From Leucosporidium creatinivorum (lineage: Eukaryota > Basidiomycota > Microbotryomycetes > Leucosporidiales > Leucosporidiaceae): a stretch of DNA of 64,000 nt. The notes below the pieces were generated by a model. It was not told where the DNA came from. It searched no databases and worked only from the letters and a program-made list of their open reading frames with translations. The translations under genes were made by a program, and so were the position numbers. This document shows positions 5,221-64,000 of the stretch, in pieces (position 1 is the stretch's first letter; each line of letters starts with the position of its first letter). The stretch is from assembly GCA_001600635.1 (NCBI GenBank), contig BCKL01000004.1, forward strand, positions 954,904 to 1,018,903. The letters run 5' to 3'.

Positions 5221-6043
5221 CGTCGAGAGGGAGGCGGCCGATTGGCTGTGAAGAAAGAGAAGAAGAAGGGCGACTCGCTCTTTTTCTATACCTCCTCCTC
5301 CGAACCTTCTCGCACCATCACGCGGTCGAGGAAAGCTGCTAAGCAGGAGCGGGGCTACTGGCCGCGAGGTTCCCTCTTAGGCGTTAGTGCAGAGTATTGT
5401 GAGTCCCGTCAAAACTAAAGCCGAGACTGTGCGAGAACCGCATGCAATGACTTGTGAGCACGGTCTGTATGGCCAAGAGATTGTCAAGCGCAGAGGGGCA
5501 GCAGCGAGGGTTGGAGACGGCAGAGCGCGGGCAAACGGACGCCATGCTTCTCCAGCGAGCCGTCGCTGAAGCTGCACTAGTCAGGTATAACCTTATGAGC
5601 GCTCATGGAGAACGCGGCGGAAAACAAGAAGCACGGAGACTTTCTGGACCGCCGTCAGAGATGAGCGCCGAGGCCGAACTTGAAGTGCAGCGCAGGGACA
5701 AGGGTTTGTGCAGGTGTATGATCAGAGCGGTTGCCTCAGCAGGATGAAGTACAGCGGCACACAAATCATCGCCCTCTCCTCCTGCTCGACTCGCTTTACC
5801 AGAACGTCTGCGATCTCGGCGCTCGGCGCTCGCTTGAGCCATGTCCTGAGCCGAAGCGTGCCAGTTGCTCCGAGACTCGGACGAGGGTGCCGATTAAATT
5901 CTGAGCGTATCTATGAACGAATGTCGTATGAGTTGAATTCTGAGCGTATCTATGAACGAATGTCGTATTAGTTGAAACAGAGAGCCTCGCTGTCGATTGA
6001 TGCCTGGCCGAGCTGGACGACCTGCCCCAGTTGCAGACAATCC
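5221..6043. other. Intergenic region with a short tandem repeat
   Basis: The region separates the metalloprotease 5' end from the 3' end of the monooxygenase gene; both are on the minus strand. It should contain the protease promoter. Apart from the 39-bp repeat listed separately, no gene is supported. Scattered open frames lack family features. Confidence 0.4.
5894..5971. repeat. Two-copy 39-bp direct tandem repeat
   Basis: Unit one starts TTAAATTCTGAGCG at 5894. Unit two starts TTGAATTCTGAGCG at 5933. They differ at very few positions, near the start and at the end of the unit. The period is a multiple of three, so an open frame on the plus strand repeats a 13-residue block, but no gene is supported there. 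Confidence 0.9.
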
Positions 6044-11669: not shown

Positions 11670-12048
11670 AGAGGCGTTCAAACCTTCCCTGAACACTCGG
11701 GTATTAGGATTCCAGTTCGTTTATTAGTGTTTGAATAGCTCGCAATTTAGTGTTGACCCCTCTCCGCCCTTTCGAAACGACGAGCGAGCGCGAGACGATC
11801 CAGCTCGATTCCATTAGATGTCTTGCAGTGCGTGCATATCGCTACAGGCTCCTAGATACATGTCAAGTCGATTACTAGTACAGCTGTGGAGAGGAGACGG
11901 TAGGTCAGCAGCGACTCGACAGCTCGGCGAAGAGGGAGCGAGCGGCCGACTCACTTTTGTGAGTTGCAACAACAGCTATGTATCGAGTGCTGCAGAGGTC
12001 AGACAATTAGCTCTCTTCGCTCAAATCTAGACCACACTCGATTCACTA
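11670..12048. other. Intergenic region between convergent genes
   Basis: A 379-bp 3'-to-3' spacer between the transporter and the F-box gene. Nothing else is recognised in it. Confidence 0.4.
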
Positions 12049-13610
12049 CTACTGAGCCATCTCCTCGTCGGGCAAGAAGGTGAACCGAATCCCCCTCGCC
12101 TCGCAAGCCTGCGCCATCGCCTCGGCATTCTCGTGCTCCCAAGCATCCGCCGAATCATACAGCACCAAAGATTCGAGCGCTCCAAAGTCGAGCGAAGGAT
12201 CAAGGAGATCGTCGATGAGATGCTGCGAGAAGATGAACGAGCCGACGTGGTTGAACGATTGGATCTCGAGGGTGACGAGCTTCGGAGGGATGAGGCGGAA
12301 GATGTTGGTGGAGATCTCGGTGGCAGAGATGCTGAGACGGTGCAGGTGCTGCTGGTAGGGTAGGAGCAGGTCGAAGATGGGCTCGTGAGTCGCCGGGTCG
12401 AACTGGTCGAGTTGTTCCACGGTCGGGCTGGAGGGGGGTGGAGTCAGCTCGTTTACAGCAAAGCTCGAAGTAGAAGTCACGACTCACTTGCAGATGAAGC
12501 GAAGTGACTTGATGGAAGCAGCACACGACCTCAGCGCCGTCGTCGTCCTGCGAGAAGGATTGGCTCGAGGTCAGCTTTCGAGGCGAGGCCAAGAGAAGTC
12601 GCTCAAACTCACTGCTTGGAGGGCAGCAGCCTCTCAAAGTAGATATCGCATACCTCGAGCTCATGGCACGCCGAAAGCAACGCCCACAGCGTCTGGTCCG
12701 AGAGCTCGCAGTGCAGCCGCAACTCGACGAGGGGGAGGAAGAGCGGNGGNGGGCTCATGAGAGGNGGCANGGCGATGGCTGNAGNNTCNGTCTCTGCTTC
12801 AAACTCGAGCTCGAACGTCCTGAGGCTCGGATGAGCTAGAGCGAGGTCATTGGCCGCGTACAGGCCTGTCCCCCAGTCGCGATCCGAGATGCCGAGACGA
12901 GGAGCGCATACGAGCGACTGGAGGTGCAGCGAGGCGAGGGCGACGAGGAGAGCATTGCGAGCACCGTGGTGGAGAGGTCGGACTTGTAGGTGACGAAGGT
13001 TGGGGCACAGAGTGAGGACGCGGATGAGGTCGAGCGAATCCTCGGCCAGTCCCGTGTCGTCCTCGGTCTCCTCCCTGTGGTCGCCGACGCCGATGACGAG
13101 GTGCTGCACCTTGACAGCATGCTCGGGATAGTGGTGCAGCGTGTCCAGGAATGCGCGAGCCTTGTCGCCGCCGAGAAGCGCAACCGAGCGGTAGAGCGCT
13201 GCGTTGGCTGTGGGAGTGTGCAGCGTTGGGTCAGCTACGGGTCTCGAGCTGCATCATAGCATCATTCACACCCACCTGCATCTTCCCACGCCGAGCAGAT
13301 CAAAGGCATGGTGTCGAGCGACTCGTTCGGATCCCACCGCGAGAGCTTGCCGCCATGCTCGCTCTGCACAGGATCCTTCTCGACAGCGTAGAGGAAGATG
13401 TCGAGGAGGATGTGGTAAGGGAGCCCTTGCGGTCGTGTCGGCATGAGCTGAGCTTGGTCGAAGGGCGTCTCGGTAGGAGGCGAGAGCGAAGGAGAGGCGC
13501 CGCTGCTTGGTCGCAGGAAGAGGGAGCGAATGAGTGTAGCTGTAGGTAGGAGGAGAAGCCTCGGTCAGCGCGTAAGCTTTCTAGTCGAACGCCGAGCCAT
13601 ACTCACCCAT
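12049..13610 (-). CDS. F-box/LRR-like protein, copy 1
   Basis: Exons 13610-13607, 13539-13276, 13207-12613, 12547-12488 and 12427-12049 sum to 433 aa. The first coding exon is only ATGG; joining to exon 2 gives MATLIRSLFLRP, and the same arrangement recurs at 63854 in the duplicated arm. PYHILLDIFLYAVEKDP...MPLICSAW is an F-box-like start (L-P-x-x-[IL]-L..I) followed by Leu-rich segments (LTLCPNLRHLQVRPL, PLVELRLHCELSDQTLWAL, SATEISTNIFRLIPPKLVTLEI) typical of fungal F-box/LRR substrate adaptors of SCF ligases. The target is unknown. Eight ambiguous bases fall within 12747-12789 in exon 3, so a few residues are undefined. An F-box assignment from such weak similarity is moderate. Confidence 0.68.
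12747..12789. other. Cluster of eight ambiguous bases (N)
   Basis: Ns occur at 12747, 12750, 12765, 12770, 12782, 12785, 12786 and 12789, all within one exon of the F-box gene. I saw no other Ns in the window. They fall on first and third codon positions. Isolated Ns interleaved with called bases look like a mixed consensus rather than a gap. Confidence 0.95.
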
Positions 13611-15912
13611 CTTTGACCTCGAGACGGCGAAGGAGAGGGGAGGACGAGCTCGAGTCGCGGGGAAAGGTCGAGCTAGCCCGAGGGGCAGAGGCTCGAGTGA
13701 GGGTGTGCGCTACTGGTGAGCTAGTGGAGTGCAGCTGGAGTGTTGCTGGACGAAGAGGAAGGAGCGGAACCGCGAAATCACGCGTCCCAATTCGAACCTC
13801 GCTACCCGCCGAAGTCGAGCCTGAGGTCGACCACCAGGGTTGCCCTCCTGCTACTTTGTCTCGAGTGTCCTGTAGCAATTGCGACCGTACTGGACACATA
13901 TCCGACTGCTCTTCAACCTCGAGAGTGTTGCCGCAGGAACACCGAGAGGAGCAAGGGGAGTTGGGGAGGAGCGGTGAAGATGGAGCTGCTGTTGGCGGGA
14001 GGACGCTGATGAAGAGCTTCCGAAGCAGCTGGAAAGCGGGGAAGGTGTACTGCTGCTCTACAGCCTTCCTACGCAGCTGCAGGAAGACAGCTCGACGCCC
14101 GTCGCCACTCGTCGGCATAGTGCGTCGAGCGGGAAAGGGAAGCCTCCTGGACAGGAAGCTCAGCAGCTTTTGACGTGCAGGGGAGCAGCATGTGCATCTT
14201 TGATCGTCGTGGAAGAAGACGAGACCGCTCGGAGGGGGTCGGATTGGCTGTTCGGCGAGGAGGGGTCAAGCTGCTTCTCCTCGATTGGCGGTGGTAGTAG
14301 GAAGTGTCCTAGAGTTCCGGGCGGGAGGAGCGTACTTGCTCGATGCTTTTGGATCAGCTCCGACGCTGTTCGGTGTCCTCGAGCTGGACTGGAGATGAGG
14401 GACGGGGGACTCAGGGCATGGCTCGCCGACTGAGCCTTTCGAGGTGATGCTCCTGAGGATGCTGATGGCGGCGTAGGATGTAGTAGTGATGCTTGGAGGT
14501 GCGGACGAGATGACTGGGGGGTGGTAAAAGTCAGGTTAGTGGGCTTGCTCCTTCGCGAGATGAGGAAGCGAAACGAGCTGAACCCTTCTCGTTCGCCTAC
14601 AGGTCAAACTCCAATCACAACACGCTGTCCACCTCATCCACGAATCCTCTCACTGCCTTCTCCGCCCCTCCAACCTTCCGCCTCTCTCCCCCAGCGCCAT
14701 CAGCGCCATCCCCGCCGCCGACTTGGCCTTCCTCCATCCGCCCACGCTCTCAATACGCCTCACTCGGTCGGCGATATTCCTACCGCCCGACCTGAGAGCA
14801 ACAGCGTGCGCTCCTTGGCCGTCAGCCAACGAGCATCACGCTCAGCGTGGACTCGACTTCTCAAGCGGTCAGCTACGAGGGACTCAACAGCAGTAGAGAC
14901 AAGCACAGTAGAGTTTGCTGAATGTACCCCGTCCTCATCTTATCGTCCCGACCACGAGGAGAGCCAGAGGCAGACAGAGCATGCCAGACGCCCGTCGCCG
15001 CTCATCCGCTTCACATAAGCTGTAGCATCTCAAAGCCGACGAGGAACCACAGCCGGAGCAGCTCACCACCGCGACCCTTCACCGAGCCCTTCTTCACCTT
15101 CCCTCCCTGCTGCAGCTTCACCGCCAAACCTCGCCGCGCCCTCGCTCTGCGCCAGCTCTCCCAAGCGTCGACGAGCAGCAGCCCTCCCTGTCGCTCCTCC
15201 TGCACCAGCCTACGCCACACTACACTCACCTGGCTCGTGTATCGAACCGTTCTCGTCTACAGAGCTCGACAAGAACACCGAGAGAGGCTCGAAAGCTGCC
15301 TCAAGCACAGCGAGCTTGGAGCGAGGGTTCCGAGAAGATCGTCGCGTGATGCGGCTTGGGAGCTGGCCGTGTTGGCGAGAGACCACGAGAGCCGAGCGAA
15401 AGCGTACTTCTAGGCTGATGTAGACTGTTCGAAGTGACGAAACGGTCGAGAGAGCAGCGAGCGAGTGAGAGGAAGAAGGGAGAAAGGCGACGGCGAGCGG
15501 TTCGGAGCTTCCTCACAGTAGCCTCGCCGTCTCGCTCGAGTCGAGCTTTAATCACTGTGGCAATAGCTCTGTACTGAGTCTGTTTCGACTTGATGAATCT
15601 TCTCTGCCGCTCCGTGCTCAGGCTTCGCAGCATCACCGAGCTGTCGAGCGACGGCCCCTGGCCCCAGAGGCGCTCTCCTGTAGCTTCAGCGGCAGCTGCA
15701 GGACCGACCAACAAAGCTCAACGTACTTTGATCTTTCCTCTTGGATCGCTGCTGCTCACCACGGCTCGATAATCGAGCTCATCATTCGCGAGCTCAGGCC
15801 AACTTTCGCTCTGTCTCTCTCGGCTTCCTGCCTTATTAAGCAGGGTCGTATCAGCTCATATCGGACTACACGCAAAGCAGAGTATTGCTCCTCGTCCACC
15901 TTCTCTGCTCGA
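13611..15912. other. Unassigned spacer inside the left duplicated arm
   Basis: No gene is firmly supported. Several frames stay partly open in both arms: minus 14118-13603 (first ~90 codons similar to plus 63340 onward, then the frame differs), plus 14170-14433 (similar to minus 63287-63012) and plus 14521-15018. Small indels between the arms break each of these frames, which argues against selection on them as proteins. An intron-like unit on the minus strand ends CTAACCTGACTTTTACCACCCCCCAG near 14516, so a spliced 5' leader or non-coding transcript is possible. Confidence 0.4.
15301..15714 (-). other. 137-codon open frame identical in both duplicated arms
   Basis: The reading starting MLVGPAAAAEATGERLWGQ is the same, residue for residue, at 15714-15301 (minus) and 61734-62147 (plus). 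It is Arg/Ser-rich, has no recognised domain and no signal or membrane segment. Identity follows from the whole ~740-bp tract being identical, so it is not by itself evidence of coding. The opposite strand is also open over part of the tract (plus 14922-15413). Confidence 0.25.
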
Positions 15913-16325
15913 CTAAGCGCGACCTCCCGGCTGAGCCATTTGAGGCGCCGGCCCTCCGTAGACGGCCCTCGTCTCGCGCCTGTCCGAGAAGGCAGACCAA
16001 GCCAAGGCGATGAGGTAGAAGGAGAGGAAGGTCTTGTGTATGCAGATCCATTCAGCAGCAACTTGAGCCAAGTAGCGAGAGGAGGCAAGACCCGCCAGGT
16101 CATCCAAGCAAAAGCCTCCATCGTCGCGAACATGGCGCAGCGAATTCTCCTACAAGCGGGGCCGAGGATGATGCACCTCTCTTGCGAGCAGCTGTTGTTG
16201 TTCAAAGCGACGTCGATACCAAAACAGGAGATGAAGACGAGATTCTGATCTCGGAGAGAGGTCAGCTCGATTGAAGTTCGGCGAAGGCGAAGTCGGTCTC
16301 GGACACACCCAGAGGAAGCCGAGGA
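15913..16325 (-). pseudogene. 5'-truncated copy of the MARVEL-like membrane protein gene
   Basis: This corresponds to the last two exons of the gene at 60605-61535. The exon-5 equivalent (about 16246-16098) still reads NNNSCSQERCIILGPACRR and MFATMEAFAWMTW, close to the intact copy. The exon-6 equivalent (about 16033-15913) is identical. Exons 1-4 are missing. The intron between the two pieces has lost its GTGAGC donor (GCGGGTCTTG instead) and its sequence is unrelated to the intron in the intact gene. It is most simply a broken duplicate left at the edge of the segmental duplication. Confidence 0.78.
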
Positions 16326-17539
16326 CAGCGACCTCGATAATCTACCTTTGGCAGGTGGGTCTGAGGAATAGTACGAAGATGCACCAGCTTGAGCAGCTCC
16401 CCTCTTGACCTGTCGACAGCCTTACTAACGCCATTTGACCGCGCTCGGCGATGAGCTTCGGCGCACCCCGCTCGCCCTTCGCATCTCCCTGTGCTACCAC
16501 GAGGGTAGAGCGACGGATCATTCTCTTTTCCCATCACTGCACTTTCGCGAGGCTGCTTGCAGGAGCCACATCGACGTCAAAGAGGTTCAAAGAGCAATCC
16601 CGAGCCCCTCGAATTCGGCGGAAGGGGCCGACGGCGAGCGAGAGTAATTCGGAGCTCGTGAAGCCGACGCTACCGCTCGGTTAATCCGAGGGTATATGCT
16701 GCTGAGCTCTTTTGACCGTTACGATGACCATCGGACTAGCAGAGTTGGGGGCGAGGCGCTTCGGCGGCTATCCCCTCCGAATCGTATCGCAACCATCGCG
16801 AGGACGCCAGCATCGACTTGTCGTCGGCTATAGTTCTACAGTACAGCGAAGCAGGTGATGGCAATATGCAGAGCTCGGTAAGGCAAGATGGACGGGCAAA
16901 ATTAATCAAGCTCGGCGAAAGCTTGCTTCCTCTCCCTCAATCGCGTATAATGCAGGGGAGTAAGCTGGGGGCTACCCCGAGCTTAACAACTCGCAATTCA
17001 GCGCCCGCGGCTACTTGCCTTGATGGACAAAGGCTGGAAGCTGGCGATCTCTGACGTTCTACAGAGTTTTGGCCAGCCCCCTCACCTCCCCGCAGATGCT
17101 GCGGCTCGAGCATCGCCTCCGCCGTCGTCTTTTGTTGCTGTAGGCGAGCAGAAAGCGCGTACAGGAGCGAACAAAAGGCGAACAGCAATGTTTGTTGTTC
17201 AACGCAGCTAGATGAGGTGCACGACAGGTCCCGGAACCTGCAGGGAAAGCAGGCAAACGGAGCGCCGAGGCCGCTCATCGCCGGCTTAGGAAGGTCGTTT
17301 GAGGGAGTTGGAGTCGTCTAACCTGCCTCGGAGAACGTTGGCCTGGCAAGCTTCCTTGTCGAGGTTGTGAGAGCCCACATCACACCTCTCGTGCAGGGCT
17401 GGCATCCCTTGTCCGTCTCCTCCTCCTCGCCTTCCCCCTCGTTCCTCCCTCCTCGCTCCTGCATCCGTCGTACTCGCCAGCGCCATAGCTTCCAACTCGC
17501 CCAAGCCGTCGATACAACCGTCCTCAGCGGCTCCACGCG
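16326..17539. promoter_or_regulatory. Intergenic region upstream of the disordered regulator-like gene
   Basis: A 1.2-kb stretch between the edge of the duplicated arm and the start at 17540. It likely includes a long 5' leader: pyrimidine-rich sequence fills about 17400-17470. No gene or RNA was recognised. Confidence 0.35.
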
Positions 17540-31900: not shown

Positions 31901-33238
31901 TCTTGTCGGCGAGCTCAGTTCCCTTGTAGGTGGCAACGACGGTGTACTTCTTCTCCTTCTTGGCCTTGACGGGGTCCTTGTACAGGGCGGTGAGGAGCTT
32001 GTCGCAGAGGATGAACTTGCGGTCGCGCTCGGTGTCGTGAATCTGAACGTAGGTGAGCTCGGGGTGAACGCAGAGGGCGAGATTGGAGGGGAGAGTCCAG
32101 GGAGTAGTAGTCCAGGCGAGGAAGGCGACGGAGGGGTCCTCGACGAGCTTGAAGGCGACGGTGACTGCGAAGAAGGGGGAGAGGGTCAGCCGAGCTTTCT
32201 TGAGGAGGCGAGGGGCCCAGGAGCTCTCGAGCGTACCAGCAGGGTCCTGAACGTCCTTGTAAGCCTGTCCAGCCTCGAAGTTGGAGAGGGGAGTGGTGCA
32301 GCCGGTGGTGTAAGGCATGACCTTGAGTCCACGGTAGACGAGGTCCTTCTTCCACAGCTGTCCAAAGACCCACCAGACCGACTCCATGAAAGGAGTGTTG
32401 AGGGTCTTGTAGTCGTTGTCGAAGTCGATCCACCTTCCCAGGCGCTCGACGGTTCGGCGCCATTCCGACGAGTACCTCATCACGATGGCGCGGCACTCGG
32501 CGTTGTACTTGTCGATGCCCATGGCCATGACGTCGGCCTTGGAGGTGATTCCGAGCTTCTTGTCAATCTCGTGCTCAACGGGGAGGCCGTGGGTATCCCA
32601 ACCGAAGCGGCGCTCGACGTAGAAGCCGTTCGAGTGAGCGAAGCGGGTGACAATGTCCTGTAGGATCAGCAAGTCAGCTCGGTTCTTGGTGCAGCATAGT
32701 CGAGACAGAAGTGAGCCGCGAGAGGTGCTTCCTAGCACCTCCCATCGCCCTCCAGCCGAGCCAAACGAGGGGCGAGCAGCTGGCTACGCTCCTCCTGCTC
32801 TGCCCTGCTGTCCTCCTACAAACTCGACATCACTGAAGCTGTAGCCTACCTTGACGGTCCCCATGAGGATGTGACCATGATGCGGAAGTCTGTAATGCGG
32901 TAGAGCCAGTCAGTAAAGAGCTGGTAGGAGTGGCCGCTGCTTTCCTGCTCCTCGCGGTTCTCAAGGGATGGGAATGAGCTGGAGAGGTAGACTCACCCAG
33001 TGGCGAAAGGAGGTCCATCGTAGAACGAGTACTGCGGCTTGCCTACAGACTGGCGAACCGACTCTTGGAAAGCATCAATCTCCTTCCAGAATCCGAGCAC
33101 CTGGCGAGTCAAAAAGCGCGTTAGCAGGCTGTAGGGAGGTAGGCAGAGCACAGAGCGTACCTTCTCTTCTTCCTTGGGGAAGCTAAAGTTGCTCGAGGGG
33201 TTGTGCTCGGGGAACACGGCATTCGGATTCGTCGCCAT
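28957..33238 (-). CDS. ILS1: Isoleucyl-tRNA synthetase, cytosolic
   Basis: Charges tRNA-Ile with isoleucine; class I synthetase with an editing domain. The first exon 33238-33161 codes for [12 protein letters not shown]...KEEEK, then [10 protein letters not shown] joins [13 protein letters not shown]. The class I HIGH motif is thus HHGH, where most relatives have [25 protein letters not shown], the CP1 editing segment ([34 protein letters not shown]) and [12 protein letters not shown] follow in order. The adenylate-binding loop is [11 protein letters not shown] (KMSKS, about 30580). The anticodon-binding region and C-terminal extension run to 28957. The order and size match eukaryotic cytosolic IleRS. 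No mitochondrial presequence is evident. Confidence 0.96.
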
Positions 33239-34740: not shown

Positions 34741-35130
34741 GGGAGTTGAGTAGACATGTAAGAACCCGAGCCCGATAAGGTGTGCCGAAGGATGGATGCG
34801 CGGTCGAGCTGCGAAGCAAGCGCCGAGCGCGAGCGCCGAGACGGGCGTCGAAAGCGCCGTGTAGGCTCAGCAAGGGCATCTCAGTCTGCTCAGACAGTTA
34901 AATATCTACTAGACACCGACCAGCTCTCATCTAGCTCGGGCCGAGCTGATTCGCTGATCCTAAACTGCATTCTCACCCGCTTCGCTCTAGCTCGGGCCGA
35001 GCTGATTCGCTGATCCTAAACTGCATTCTCACCCGCTTCGCTCACTCGAACGGCGCAAGTTCGCGGAGCCGCTCTCCCGACTCGAGATTCCCGACAAGCA
35101 CAGCGACTATGTTACAGCTTCAACAGACCC
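34741..35130. other. Intergenic region between convergent genes, with tandem repeat
   Basis: A 390-bp 3'-to-3' spacer between the methyltransferase gene and SNU23. It contains the 56-bp tandem repeat listed separately and no supported gene. Confidence 0.5.
34930..35041. repeat. Two-copy 56-bp direct tandem repeat
   Basis: The unit beginning TCTAGCTCGGGCCGAGCTGA occurs at 34930 and again at 34986 with no difference seen. Each unit contains the near-palindrome AGCTCGGGCCGAGCT. It sits in a 3'-to-3' spacer. Confidence 0.93.
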
Positions 35131-42059: not shown

Positions 42060-43232
42060 CTATGACCTATGGGAACTCCCCCTTCGGTCCCTTCCCACCG
42101 CCATTGCCGCCGAGCTCCGAGTCGCCTCCCACCGCTCGTCCATCAGCTCTTTCCATTCCCTTCTCTCCCTCGCGCTCCACCACTCATCGCCGACCCGAAT
42201 GGTACAGTTTGGCGCCCAACCGTTCTTGACCGCAGCGACACAGTCTGAGTGTAGGAGCGCTTCACGCCCCGGCGCAATGAGGTCGAGGATGCGAAGGGAG
42301 GTGGGGAGACGAGCGAGGAAGAAGCCGTGGTCGTCCGTCTGGATGGAGCAATGGGCAAATGAGCCCTCCCATGTTATGGAGAGGTGTTGGACTTGGGTGC
42401 AGCCCTCGAGTATCGGCAAGAGGCGAAGGAGGTCGAGGGGATCATGTGAGAGGACGACGAGTTCGAGCCGAGCGAGGTTGAGGAAGGTGGAGAATCGAGG
42501 ATGTGGGAGCTCCCAGAAGCCAGCGTCTAAGTCGATGTAGACGTGCTGCAAGCTGGGCGATCCGGGCTCGGCCCACTCAGAGAAGGACGAGTAGGCTGCC
42601 GCGCTGAGCGAGAGGTAGTTGAGATCCCAGGGTACGGGCCCCGCAACCGTATAGTCGAGAGCATCGTGGTAGATGAGGATGCTTTTGAGTGCTACGAGAG
42701 AGCGCAGCGCGACGACTATGTCGGCTGATGGCGGAGAATCGTAGGCGCCCCACAGCTCGACTCGGCGGAGGTTGGGCTTGCTGCCTGCCGCGAACTTGAT
42801 GAGCCTGTAGGTGTCGTCGTTATTGGAATTGTCGAGATGCAGAAAGTCCAATTGACTGCAGCAGGCGAAGAACACGCCTACCAGTCGACTGAGCTGGCTC
42901 CACTCGAGCGGCGGCGCCGAAAAAGGGTTCGGCCAGTCCTCCTCCACGAACTCGATGGAGAGACAGCGAACCGAGTCCCGAGCATGCTTGTTGGAAAGCA
43001 AAGTCTCCTCCAATATGCGTCGCTTCCTCTTGAGCTCCCTCCACGGGTCCTGGGCGATCTGAAGGCAGACGGTCCTGTAGAGCTCCTCCGTGGCGAGCAC
43101 GCGGAGTGCTTTGCACACGAGCGTACAACGCGCCAGCATGTCCTCCGGTTGTATCGCGTAGGTGAGCAGCTCCGGTTCGTTGACAGCGCGGAGGATCTGA
43201 GCGAAGACTTCGGGAGGGAAGGAAGTGGGCAT
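42060..43232 (-). CDS. Intronless F-box-like protein
   Basis: A single open frame of 390 aa, unusual beside its intron-rich neighbours. The N-terminus MPTSFPPEVFAQILRAV...MLARCTLVCKALRVLATEELYRTV matches the F-box pattern (LPxEVxxxIL...L..C.LVC+.....), which binds Skp1. The remainder has irregular leucine-rich segments (LRRVELWGAYD, LQHVYIDLDAGF, LARLELVVLSHDP, VQHLSITWEG). A substrate adaptor of an SCF ubiquitin ligase is the likely role; the target is unknown. It shows no close similarity to the F-box gene at 12049-13610. The final ~20 residues are basic and Ser-rich. Confidence 0.72.
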   Translation of the reverse strand: MPTSFPPEVFAQILRAVNEPELLTYAIQPEDMLARCTLVCKALRVLATEELYRTVCLQIAQDPWRELKRKRRILEETLLSNKHARDSVRCLSIEFVEEDWPNPFSAPPLEWSQLSRLVGVFFACCSQLDFLHLDNSNNDDTYRLIKFAAGSKPNLRRVELWGAYDSPPSADIVVALRSLVALKSILIYHDALDYTVAGPVPWDLNYLSLSAAAYSSFSEWAEPGSPSLQHVYIDLDAGFWELPHPRFSTFLNLARLELVVLSHDPLDLLRLLPILEGCTQVQHLSITWEGSFAHCSIQTDDHGFFLARLPTSLRILDLIAPGREALLHSDCVAAVKNGWAPNCTIRVGDEWWSARERREWKELMDERWEATRSSAAMAVGRDRRGSSHRS

Positions 43233-60604: not shown

Positions 60605-61535
60605 ATGGCACCTGCACTCGTGAGTGCTGCTTGATAGCACGCAGAACATCTTGAATCGCCCTGCTGACCTACAGCGCTCTCCGCCTCGCACAGAAGCGCA
60701 TCCTCGGCGTCCCTCTTCTCGCGGTTCTGTGGCTCTTCTCGCTCATCGGTGAGTCTCAGTAGAGCATTCATAGGATCTGTAGGGTGGACAGATGTCCAGC
60801 GAGGCAGTGGCTGCTCGAATGGAGAAGGAGAAGCTGACGCCGAGCTGCTCGTCTCGCAGGAATGTCGCTCGCCGCCGCGCTCTGCGGTGAGTGGTCTCAA
60901 AGCTTGCAAGGGGCATTCGAGAGATGGAGCTCATCTCGCACTCTCCTGCAGCCCACTACCACGTCTGGGCTGGCTCGCTCGGCGGCTGGACGAAAGCGCT
61001 CCTCAGCCTCTTCGTCATGACCCTCTTCTTCTCCACCGTCTTCCTCCTCGGTCTACTCTTCAAGCCTGGGGATGAGGTCCGTCCTTCTCCCTTGGCCAAC
61101 ATCCCCATCAACCTCGCCACCTTCGGCTTCCTCTGGGTCAGTCCAAAGCCGAGTTCGCCTTCACCGAGCTTTCGACCGATCTGACCTCTCTCCAACATCA
61201 GACCCTCGGCCTCATCTCCTGTATCGGCATCGACGTCGCTTTGGACAACAACAGCTGCTCGCAACAGAGGTGCATCCTCCTCGGTCCTGCTTGTAGGAGG
61301 ACTCGCTGCTCCATGTTCGCGACGATGGAAGCTTTCGCTTGGATGACCTGGTGAGCCTTCTCCTCTCTCGCTCGTCCCTTCCGAATTGACGCTGACCCTC
61401 GAGTACATGAACAGGTCCTTCCTCTCCTTCTACCTCATCGCCTTGGCTTGGTCTGCCTTCTCGGACAGGCGCGAGACGAGGGCCGTCTACGGAGGGCCGG
61501 CGCCTCAAATGGCTCAGCCGGGAGGTCGCGCTTAG
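60605..61535 (+). CDS. Four-helix MARVEL-like membrane protein
   Basis: Exons 60605-60619, 60694-60748, 60860-60886, 60952-61136, 61202-61350 and 61415-61535 give 183 aa. The acceptor at 60693 is chosen because it joins MAPAL to KRILGVPLLAVLWLFSLIG in frame; an earlier AG at 60674 would give a non-hydrophobic reading. Four hydrophobic segments are predicted: ~6-33, ~45-67 (SLFVMTLFFSTVFLLGLLF), ~83-108 (NLATFGFLWTLGLISCIGIDVAL) and ~133-160 (AFAWMTWSFLSFYLIALAWSAF). A cysteine-rich loop (NNSCSQQRCILLGPACRR) lies between helices 3 and 4. The topology matches MARVEL/Nce102-type fungal proteins. Its last two exons recur as a broken copy at 15913-16325. Confidence 0.75.
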
Positions 61536-63853
61536 TCGAGCAGAGAAGGTGGACGAGGAGCAATACTCTGCTTTGCGTGTAGTCCGATATGAGCTGATAC
61601 GACCCTGCTTAATAAGGCAGGAAGCCGAGAGAGACAGAGCGAAAGTTGGCCTGAGCTCGCGAATGATGAGCTCGATTATCGAGCCGTGGTGAGCAGCAGC
61701 GATCCAAGAGGAAAGATCAAAGTACGTTGAGCTTTGTTGGTCGGTCCTGCAGCTGCCGCTGAAGCTACAGGAGAGCGCCTCTGGGGCCAGGGGCCGTCGC
61801 TCGACAGCTCGGTGATGCTGCGAAGCCTGAGCACGGAGCGGCAGAGAAGATTCATCAAGTCGAAACAGACTCAGTACAGAGCTATTGCCACAGTGATTAA
61901 AGCTCGACTCGAGCGAGACGGCGAGGCTACTGTGAGGAAGCTCCGAACCGCTCGCCGTCGCCTTTCTCCCTTCTTCCTCTCACTCGCTCGCTGCTCTCTC
62001 GACCGTTTCGTCACTTCGAACAGTCTACATCAGCCTAGAAGTACGCTTTCGCTCGGCTCTCGTGGTCTCTCGCCAACACGGCCAGCTCCCAAGCCGCATC
62101 ACGCGACGATCTTCTCGGAACCCTCGCTCCAAGCTCGCTGTGCTTGAGGCAGCTTGCGAGCCTCTCTCGGTGTTCTTGTCGAGCTCTGTAGACGAGAACG
62201 GTTCGATACACGAGCCAGGTGAGTGTAGTGTGGCGTAGGCTGGTGCAGGAGGAGCGACAGGGAGGGCTGCTGCTCGTCGACGCTTGGGGGAGCTGGCGCA
62301 GAGCGAGGGCGCGGCGAGGTTTGGTGAAGCTCGAGCAGGGAGGGAAGGAGAAAAGGGCTCGGTGAAGGATCACGGCGGTGAGCTGCTCGGGCTGTGGTTC
62401 CTCGTCGGCTTTGAGATGCTACAGCTTATGTGAAGCGGATGAGCGGCGACGGGCGTCTGGCATGTCTCTGTCTGCCTCTGGCTCTCCTCGTGATCGGGAC
62501 GATAAGATGAAGACGGGTTACATTCAGCAAACCCTGCTATACTTGTCTCTACTGCTGCTGAGTCCCTGGTAGCTGACCGCCTGAGACGTCGAGTCCACGG
62601 TGAGCGTGATGCTCGTTGGCTGACGGCCAAGGAGCGCACGCTGTTGCTCCCAGGTCGGGCGGTAGGATGCTGACGGATCTAGCTATGTACCTCCGACGGA
62701 GTGAGGTGTGCTGAGGGCGTCGGCGGAAGATGGAGGGCCGAGTCGGCGCGGGGATGGCGCTGATGGGGGACAGAGAGGCGGAAGGTTGGAGGGTTGGAGA
62801 CGGCAGTGAAAGAATTCGTCGATGAGGTGGACAGCGTGTTGTGATCGGAGATTGACCTGTAGGCGAACGAGAAGGGTTCAGCTCGTCTCGCTTCCTCATC
62901 TCGCGAAGGAGCAAGCCCACTAACCTGACCTTTACCACCCTCCAGTGATCTTGTCCGCACCTCCAAGCATCACTACTACATCCTACGCCGCCATCAGCAT
63001 CCTCAGGAGCATCACCTCGAAAGGCTCAGCCGGCGAGCCATGCCCTCTCCCCCGTCCCTCATCTCCAGTCCAGCTCGAGGACACCGAACAGCGTCGGAGC
63101 TGATCCAAAAGCATCGAGCAAGTACGCTCCTCCCGCCCGGAACTCTAGGACACTTCCTACTACCACCGCCAATCGAGGAGAAGCAGCTTGACCCCTCCTC
63201 GCCGAGCAGCCAGTCCGACCCCCTCCGAGCGGTCTCGTCTTCTTCCACGACGATCAAAGATGCACATGCTGCTCCCCTGCACGTCAAAAGCTGCTGAGCT
63301 GCCTAGCCAGCAGGCTTTCCCTTTCCCGCTCGACGCACTATGCCGACGAGTGGCGACGGGCGTCGAGCTGTCTTCCTGCAGCTGCGTAGGAAGGCTGTAG
63401 AGCAGCAGTACACCTTCCCCGCTTTCCAGCTGCTTCGGAAGCTCCTCATCAGCGTCTTCCCGCCAACAGCAGCTCCATCTCCACCGCTCCTCCCCAGCTT
63501 CCCTTGCTCCTCTCGGTCTTCCTGCGGCGACACTCTCGAGGTTGAAGAGCAGTCGGAGATTTGTCCAGTACGGTCGTACTTGCTACAGGACAGCCGCGGG
63601 CTAGAGACAAAGAAGCAGGAGGGCAACCCTGGTCGTCGCCTCAGGCTCGACTTCGGCGGGTAGCGAGATTCGACTTGGACGCGTGATTTCGCGGTTCCGC
63701 TCCTTCCTCTCCGTCCAGCAACACTCCAGCTGCACTCCACTAGCTCGGCAGCAGCGCACACCCTCTCTTGAGCCTCTGCCCCTTGGGCTAGCTTGACGTT
63801 CCCCCGCGACTCGAGCTCGTCCTCCCCTCTCCTTCGCCGTCTCGAGGTCAAAG
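61536..63853. other. Unassigned spacer inside the right duplicated arm
   Basis: Counterpart of 13611-15912. It includes the 137-codon frame at 61734-62147, identical to the left arm, and frames at 62035-62373, 62370-62639 and 62549-62938 (minus) and 63040-63297 (plus). Their counterparts in the left arm differ by small indels. No gene is supported with confidence. Confidence 0.4.
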
Positions 63854-64000
63854 ATGGGTGAGTATGGCTCGGCGTTCGCCTGAGAAGCTTACGCGCTGAC
63901 CGAGGCTTCTCCTGCACCCTACAGCTACGCTCATTCGCTCCCTCTTCCTGCGACCAAGCAGCGGCGCCTCTCCTTCGCTCTCGCCTCCCACCGAGACGCC
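63854..64000 (+). CDS. F-box-like gene copy 2, 5' end (cut by window edge)
   Basis: A 4-nt first coding exon ATGG (63854-63857) is followed by a GTGAGT intron and a second exon from 63925. The joined reading is MATLIRSLFLRPSSGASPSL, as in the F-box gene of the left arm. It is intact as far as it is visible, but only the first ~26 codons lie inside the window. Whether the full gene is functional cannot be judged here. Confidence 0.6.

Follow-up and report, generated by a model that had tools for sequence, protein, structure and literature searches.

What is the large inverted duplication that brackets about 45 kb of genes in Leucosporidium creatinivorum, and how did it come to be there? The window, which is the whole stretch of 64,000 nucleotides that was analysed, corresponds to bases 954904-1018903 of contig C4 in a genome of 27.7 Mb and 63 contigs. 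Reverse-complementary arms of at least 2.9 kb had been described in an earlier note, and self-comparison of the window bore this out: 13464-16322 and 64000-61123 were reverse complements with 93.4% identity over 2895 columns (31 gap openings, E = 0). Apart from this arm pair, all of the self-matches in the window at E≤1e-3 were of 58 columns or fewer.

For mapping of the arms, 60 kb of flanking contig was added to the window and the resulting 124 kb was compared with itself. The full arms, A and B, were 92.1% identical over 4569 columns (Table 1). Position 64000, which had been taken as the end of an arm, proved to be the edge of the window; alignment of the sequence beyond it carried arm B on to 65664. 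The two-copy structure that had been described did not hold either, as a third copy, C, was found further along the contig in the same orientation as A. It was 93.5% identical to A (3917 columns) and 93.0% identical to B (3959 columns). All three copies lay within 70 kb (A +, B -, C +), with 44.8 kb between A and B and 11.4 kb between B and C, and the flanks of each copy had no similarity to the flanks of the others in the 124-kb self-comparison. A and B were two similar multi-kilobase sequences inverted around unique genes on a single chromosome. When the 13464-16325 segment was searched against the whole genome at DNA level, at least three places were found, namely A, B and C; all three candidates were scored and the count is a lower bound.

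Table 1. Coordinates of the features discussed, in window numbering carried past 64000 where necessary, or on contig C3 for the last three lines
Feature	Position	Strand or orientation	Basis or remark
Arm A, full extent	11819-16322	+	124-kb self-comparison; 13464-16325 is its inner part
Arm B, in-window part	61123-64000	-	Ends at 65664 (65698 against C), outside the window
Copy C	77054-80987	Same as A	124-kb self-comparison
Enclosed unique block, 44.8 kb	16323-61122		Self-comparison, Pfam
F-box/LRR-type gene (named with reserve), arm A	12049-13444	-	Exons 13444-13276, 13207-12613, 12547-12488, 12427-12049; 400 codons
F-box/LRR-type gene (named with reserve), copy B	64020-65423	+	Outside the window; shared gene model
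F-box/LRR-type gene (named with reserve), copy C	78724-77330	-	Shared gene model
Apparently non-coding upstream DNA, duplicated with the gene	13445-16322	-	Copy C only to 15684
Eight isolated N, the only N in the window	12747-12789		Arm A
A/C agreement against B, 48 consecutive variable sites	12181-12589	-	Three-way alignment
635-bp tract, A and B identical	15293-15927	+	B counterpart at about 61521-62155
C3 inverted pair 516/596	515932-520768 / 596971-592136	Inverted	97.2%, 4853 columns
C3 inverted pair 932/968	929064-933340 / 971123-966858	Inverted	94.3%, 4290 columns
C3 inverted pair 339/376	339385-341434 / 376057-374045	Inverted	89.6%, 2060 columns

The arms had been said to hold ordinary gene pieces. 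None was seen in 13464-16325, where no Pfam domain scored above chance and there was no convincing coding signature; the whole of arm A carried one complete gene, which starts at 13444, 20 bases outside that segment. Under a gene model common to A, B and C, which was our own prediction and involved no transcript comparison, the three genes had an identical four-exon structure, 400 codons apiece and intact reading frames, and the arm A gene was open apart from eight ambiguous bases. Codons were strongly conserved among the three copies. The dS/dN values were 0.165/0.027 for A-B, 0.066/0.007 for A-C and 0.148/0.022 for B-C, with dN/dS of 0.10-0.17 across the three copy pairs.

The nearest named protein was BCR35DRAFT_300291 (P0001) of L. 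creatinivorum, which was 85% identical in the search listing and 82.8-84.2% by alignment, compared with 94.2-98.5% among the A, B and C proteins. We take this protein to be from strain 62-1032. A protein difference of about 16% under the same species name may mean that the strain represents a distant lineage, or that the protein is not the direct counterpart. At least one named L. creatinivorum protein matched the window gene and at least three matched the 932/968 type of contig C3; these searches scored limited candidate lists, and the number of copies there is a minimum.

One source labels P0001 an F-box domain protein. In the arm gene the F-box-like domain PF12937 gave a weak signal below the cut-off (E = 0.044, 14.0 bits against 24.3), and, with E values of up to 1 accepted, it was detected in four of 11 scanned members of the family, 0.00019 being the best value. 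The AlphaFold model of P0001, which was built on a 12-row alignment with a mean pLDDT of 74.8 and low confidence in the F-box part, matched leucine-rich-repeat (LRR) proteins that included TIR1, rice D3, SKP2 and FBXL17 (E of about 1e-5 to 1e-4), and other leucine-rich-repeat proteins scored equally well. The predicted fold of this relative resembles those F-box/LRR (FBXL-type) ubiquitin-ligase subunits, but its TM-scores were only 0.31-0.46 and the F-box sequence signal in the arm gene was weak. The arm gene is named putatively, and with reserve, as F-box/LRR-type.

Upstream DNA of 2.3-2.9 kb was copied along with each gene, and copy C was without the 638 inner bases common to A and B. When 11801-16500 was scanned in six frames with Pfam, the single row obtained was at chance level (CEP76_N, E = 0.11, 13.3 bits where the cut-off is 27). 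The presence of another gene in this upstream part was considered and was not convincing, as most of the upstream ORFs had frame-breaking gaps or pN/pS above 0.3; this test covered the best eight ORFs per comparison with at least six differences, and N-bearing codons are included in its count of stops for the copy compared. Against the non-coding reading, the ORF at 15026-15347 (+ strand, 107 codons) had a pN/pS of 0.32 between A and C, with 10 synonymous and nine other changes and no frame break. An upstream element common to the window copies and the C3 relatives was also rejected: 14 stretches around relatives of the gene yielded no DNA-level match at E 1e-10, and the translated comparison with one of these stretches (L030) was convincing over the gene only.

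The enclosed block had been described as containing essential genes. In the parts scanned with Pfam, which amounted to less than the whole block, domains of telomerase reverse transcriptase (TERT), class I (Ile/Leu/Met/Val) tRNA synthetase, ribosomal S5-type protein (RPS2), calcineurin-like phosphoesterase and adenylate cyclase were found, in agreement with the earlier list; PRP3 and TIM17, which were also on it, were not found by Pfam in those parts. The block contained a second F-box-like ORF (42063-43232, - strand, 390 codons, PF12937 E = 5.9e-6), which had no meaningful similarity to the arm family. Minor repeats were also observed. A 58-bp piece of the tRNA-synthetase ORF (32625-32682) recurred in inverted orientation 2.3 kb away (34997-35054, 88%), and the latter overlapped a self-repeated 58-bp unit (34930-34987 and 34986-35043, 100%); elsewhere, a pair of 44-bp repeats 39 bp apart (95%) was present at 5894-5976. 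ARAGORN found no tRNA in the window, and no Rfam family reached its gathering score there.

In the three-way alignment of the copies, 334 of the 3829 ungapped columns varied, and each copy also had private indels. The variable sites comprised 93 A-only, 136 B-only and 101 C-only differences and four at which all copies differed. Pair types at these sites formed 112 runs, where shuffling gave 223 on average and never fewer than 199 in 2000 shuffles, and the longest runs, of 34 (AB), 48 (AC) and 16 (BC) sites, were each reached in none of 5000 shuffles, which treat variable sites as independent. The odd copy changed along the alignment. It was A at the outer end (38 of the 58 variable sites), where B and C agreed; B at all 48 in the 3' part of the gene (12181-12615), where A and C agreed; and C at 46 of 48 at the inner end (15150-15684), where A and B agreed. 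The 635-bp tract over which A and B are identical is probably a recent conversion tract.

Forty of the 45 interior 250-column windows were above 90% identity, the others being A-B at 79.8%, 85.7% and 89.5% and B-C at 84.8% and 88.3%. The end windows were at 78.9% and 82.0% for A-B, 81.1% and 82.6% for A-C and 96.0% and 85.2% for B-C; the low values among these are partly expected from the stopping points of local alignments. The value of 96.0%, by which B-C identity keeps up at the outer end, speaks against a conversion reading. On the pattern of variable sites, the simplest reading of the mosaic is ectopic gene conversion among copies whose age would exceed what their mean identity implies. 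A consensus shared between copies could account for long identical tracts, and assembler joins for some of the copy switches; such mix-ups should be limited because the longest run identical in all three copies was 158 bp, which is below the stated inserts of 240 bp. With the caveat of a short-read assembly, the runs and the odd-one-out counts point to homogenisation of repeats within the genome.

Translated searches for the gene family elsewhere in the genome gave 18 matches each among those at E up to 10, including the window copies and chance-level rows. Relatives at E up to 1e-3 were 27-49% identical and lay on contigs C3, C7, C11 and C25; weaker relatives were on C20 (2e-11 and 6e-11, and a third at 383 kb with E = 0.008). 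Three inverted pairs on C3 each surrounded a gene of the arm-gene family, and none had a DNA-level match to the window copies at E 1e-10. Upstream DNA was about 80% alike between 339 and 516/596, and 88-89% alike between 890 and 932/968. The C3 sets are not all independent, because those at 339 and 516/596 are related at about 80%. One C20 pair was direct (77.4%) and the C7 relatives formed a direct tandem. Strands alternated between neighbouring family members in nine of 12 cases (P = 0.073), the non-alternating neighbours being those on C7, the first C20 pair and C3 376/517. Alternation across the family is suggestive and not shown, and an orientation bias is not claimed as a rule, the figure being non-significant.

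Two further observations were made on these contigs. At locus L037, another F-box relative was flanked by a near-perfect inverted repeat (C3:258109-259223 and 263375-264490; 99.6%, 1116 columns) whose halves are separated by about 4 kb. Exons of an STE3-type pheromone receptor were present at C25:435951-436551, less than 5 kb from the contig end; a mating-type link of the arms was rejected, as these exons lie elsewhere than the arms.

The concern that the structure is an assembly artefact, which the earlier note had raised, was upheld in part. A short-read assembler may share repeat sequence so as to create false copies or a misoriented 45-kb block. According to PMC12093110, L. creatinivorum JCM 10699 was assembled with ALLPATHS-LG v52155 from libraries whose inserts measured about 240 bp, and k-mer profiles suggested haploid strains; the term 'mate-pair' is absent from its main text. 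Isolated N were counted in 264 kb in all, consisting of the 124 kb around the window (nine N: eight in arm A and one in arm B) and 14 further 10-kb stretches chosen for holding relatives of the gene (57 N, located in seven of the 14). All 66 lay within duplicated segments. Positions of N matched between the copies of the C3 pairs (12 of 12 for 516/596, six of seven against six of six for 932/968, and two of two for 339/376), suggesting that reads of the two copies were mixed and entered both consensus sequences, and one C3 arm (locus L031) ended at a long N run.

Against this stand the private differences and private indels of each copy, the dissimilar flanks and the N positions in A and B, which do not coincide. 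On these grounds the copy number of three looks sound, and an artefact is quite improbable as the explanation. The orientation of the 45-kb block is not secure in the assembly because phasing runs through the 635-bp tract identical in both arms, which exceeds the stated insert. Short-read assemblies do not secure the orientation of blocks between such arms, and caution is needed with them.

Explanations that take the copies as real were weighed within one assembly. If the arms were the scar of a single staggered-break inversion of the 45-kb block, sequence at the breakpoints would have been duplicated in inverted orientation at both ends, and a geometry of inverted few-kilobase arms at both ends of a unique block fits this. 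Duplicated fragments in Drosophila, reported in PMC4965816 to measure between a few hundred bp and 8 kb and in some cases to include complete genes, resemble the arms in standing as inverted copies at both block ends. The L. creatinivorum locus differs in its third copy and in the occurrence of the same family at other inverted pairs; random breaks would not give three C3 pairs of like geometry around one gene family, and this explanation is considered unlikely. A mobile element carrying an F-box gene would explain why the repeated units are similar in size and contain an open gene. In agreement with the earlier note, which had found neither transposase nor terminal motif, the six frames of arm A contained no transposase-like domain by Pfam, and the printed boundaries, inspected by eye, had no shared terminal motif or target-site duplication. 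In addition, the DNA-level copies found, at least three in number, all lay inside 70 kb, and the 14 stretches around relatives gave no match to them at E 1e-10; a mobile element is very hard to credit.

Most likely, the arms belong to a low-copy repeat of L. creatinivorum JCM 10699 in which an F-box/LRR-type gene and its upstream DNA are present in three copies kept similar by ectopic gene conversion. The earlier reading of a segmental duplication and not a mobile element stands as far as it was tested, except that the duplicated unit is present three times and has a single F-box/LRR-type gene at its centre. The A/B inverted duplication would have come first and C would have been copied later from B, because at the outer end A is the deviating copy and B matches C, and because C is without the 638 inner bases. 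Ectopic gene conversion since then would have kept the copies alike. A crossover between A and B, or between B and C, could flip the 45-kb or the 11-kb block with genes intact, since both of these pairs are inverted. The best reading is that recent duplicates of an ordinary gene family landed close together, several of them inverted; the essential genes that the arms enclose are incidental passengers.

The closest described case is the flip/flop (FF) region of Saccharomyces chromosome XIV, where, according to PMC9731477, 4.2-kb inverted repeats enclose a 24-kb block, gene conversion during non-allelic recombination is proposed and flipping was shown by strain comparison. Both systems have homogenised inverted repeats of about 4 kb, with genes and intergenic DNA, around ordinary genes, and the FF gene family also duplicates often. 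They differ in the size of the block (24 kb against 45 kb), in the genes of the repeats (Centroid and a partner gene against the F-box/LRR type), in copy number (two against three) and in that flipping was seen between strains in Saccharomyces, whereas in L. creatinivorum it would be deduced from one assembly. What is new is modest: the locus adds a basidiomycete example in which the repeat is present three times and the genome has several loci like it.

It is conceivable, though doubtful, that these loci form a set of invertible blocks that end in homogenised inverted copies of one F-box family and flip repeatedly in nature, as the FF region does. The blocks would then measure 45 and 11 kb near the window and about 31-33, 33.5 and 71 kb on C3. 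If repeated flipping were true, rearrangement would be a habit linked to a single gene family. Several F-box loci in such a state, in a basidiomycete yeast, would provide an independent test.
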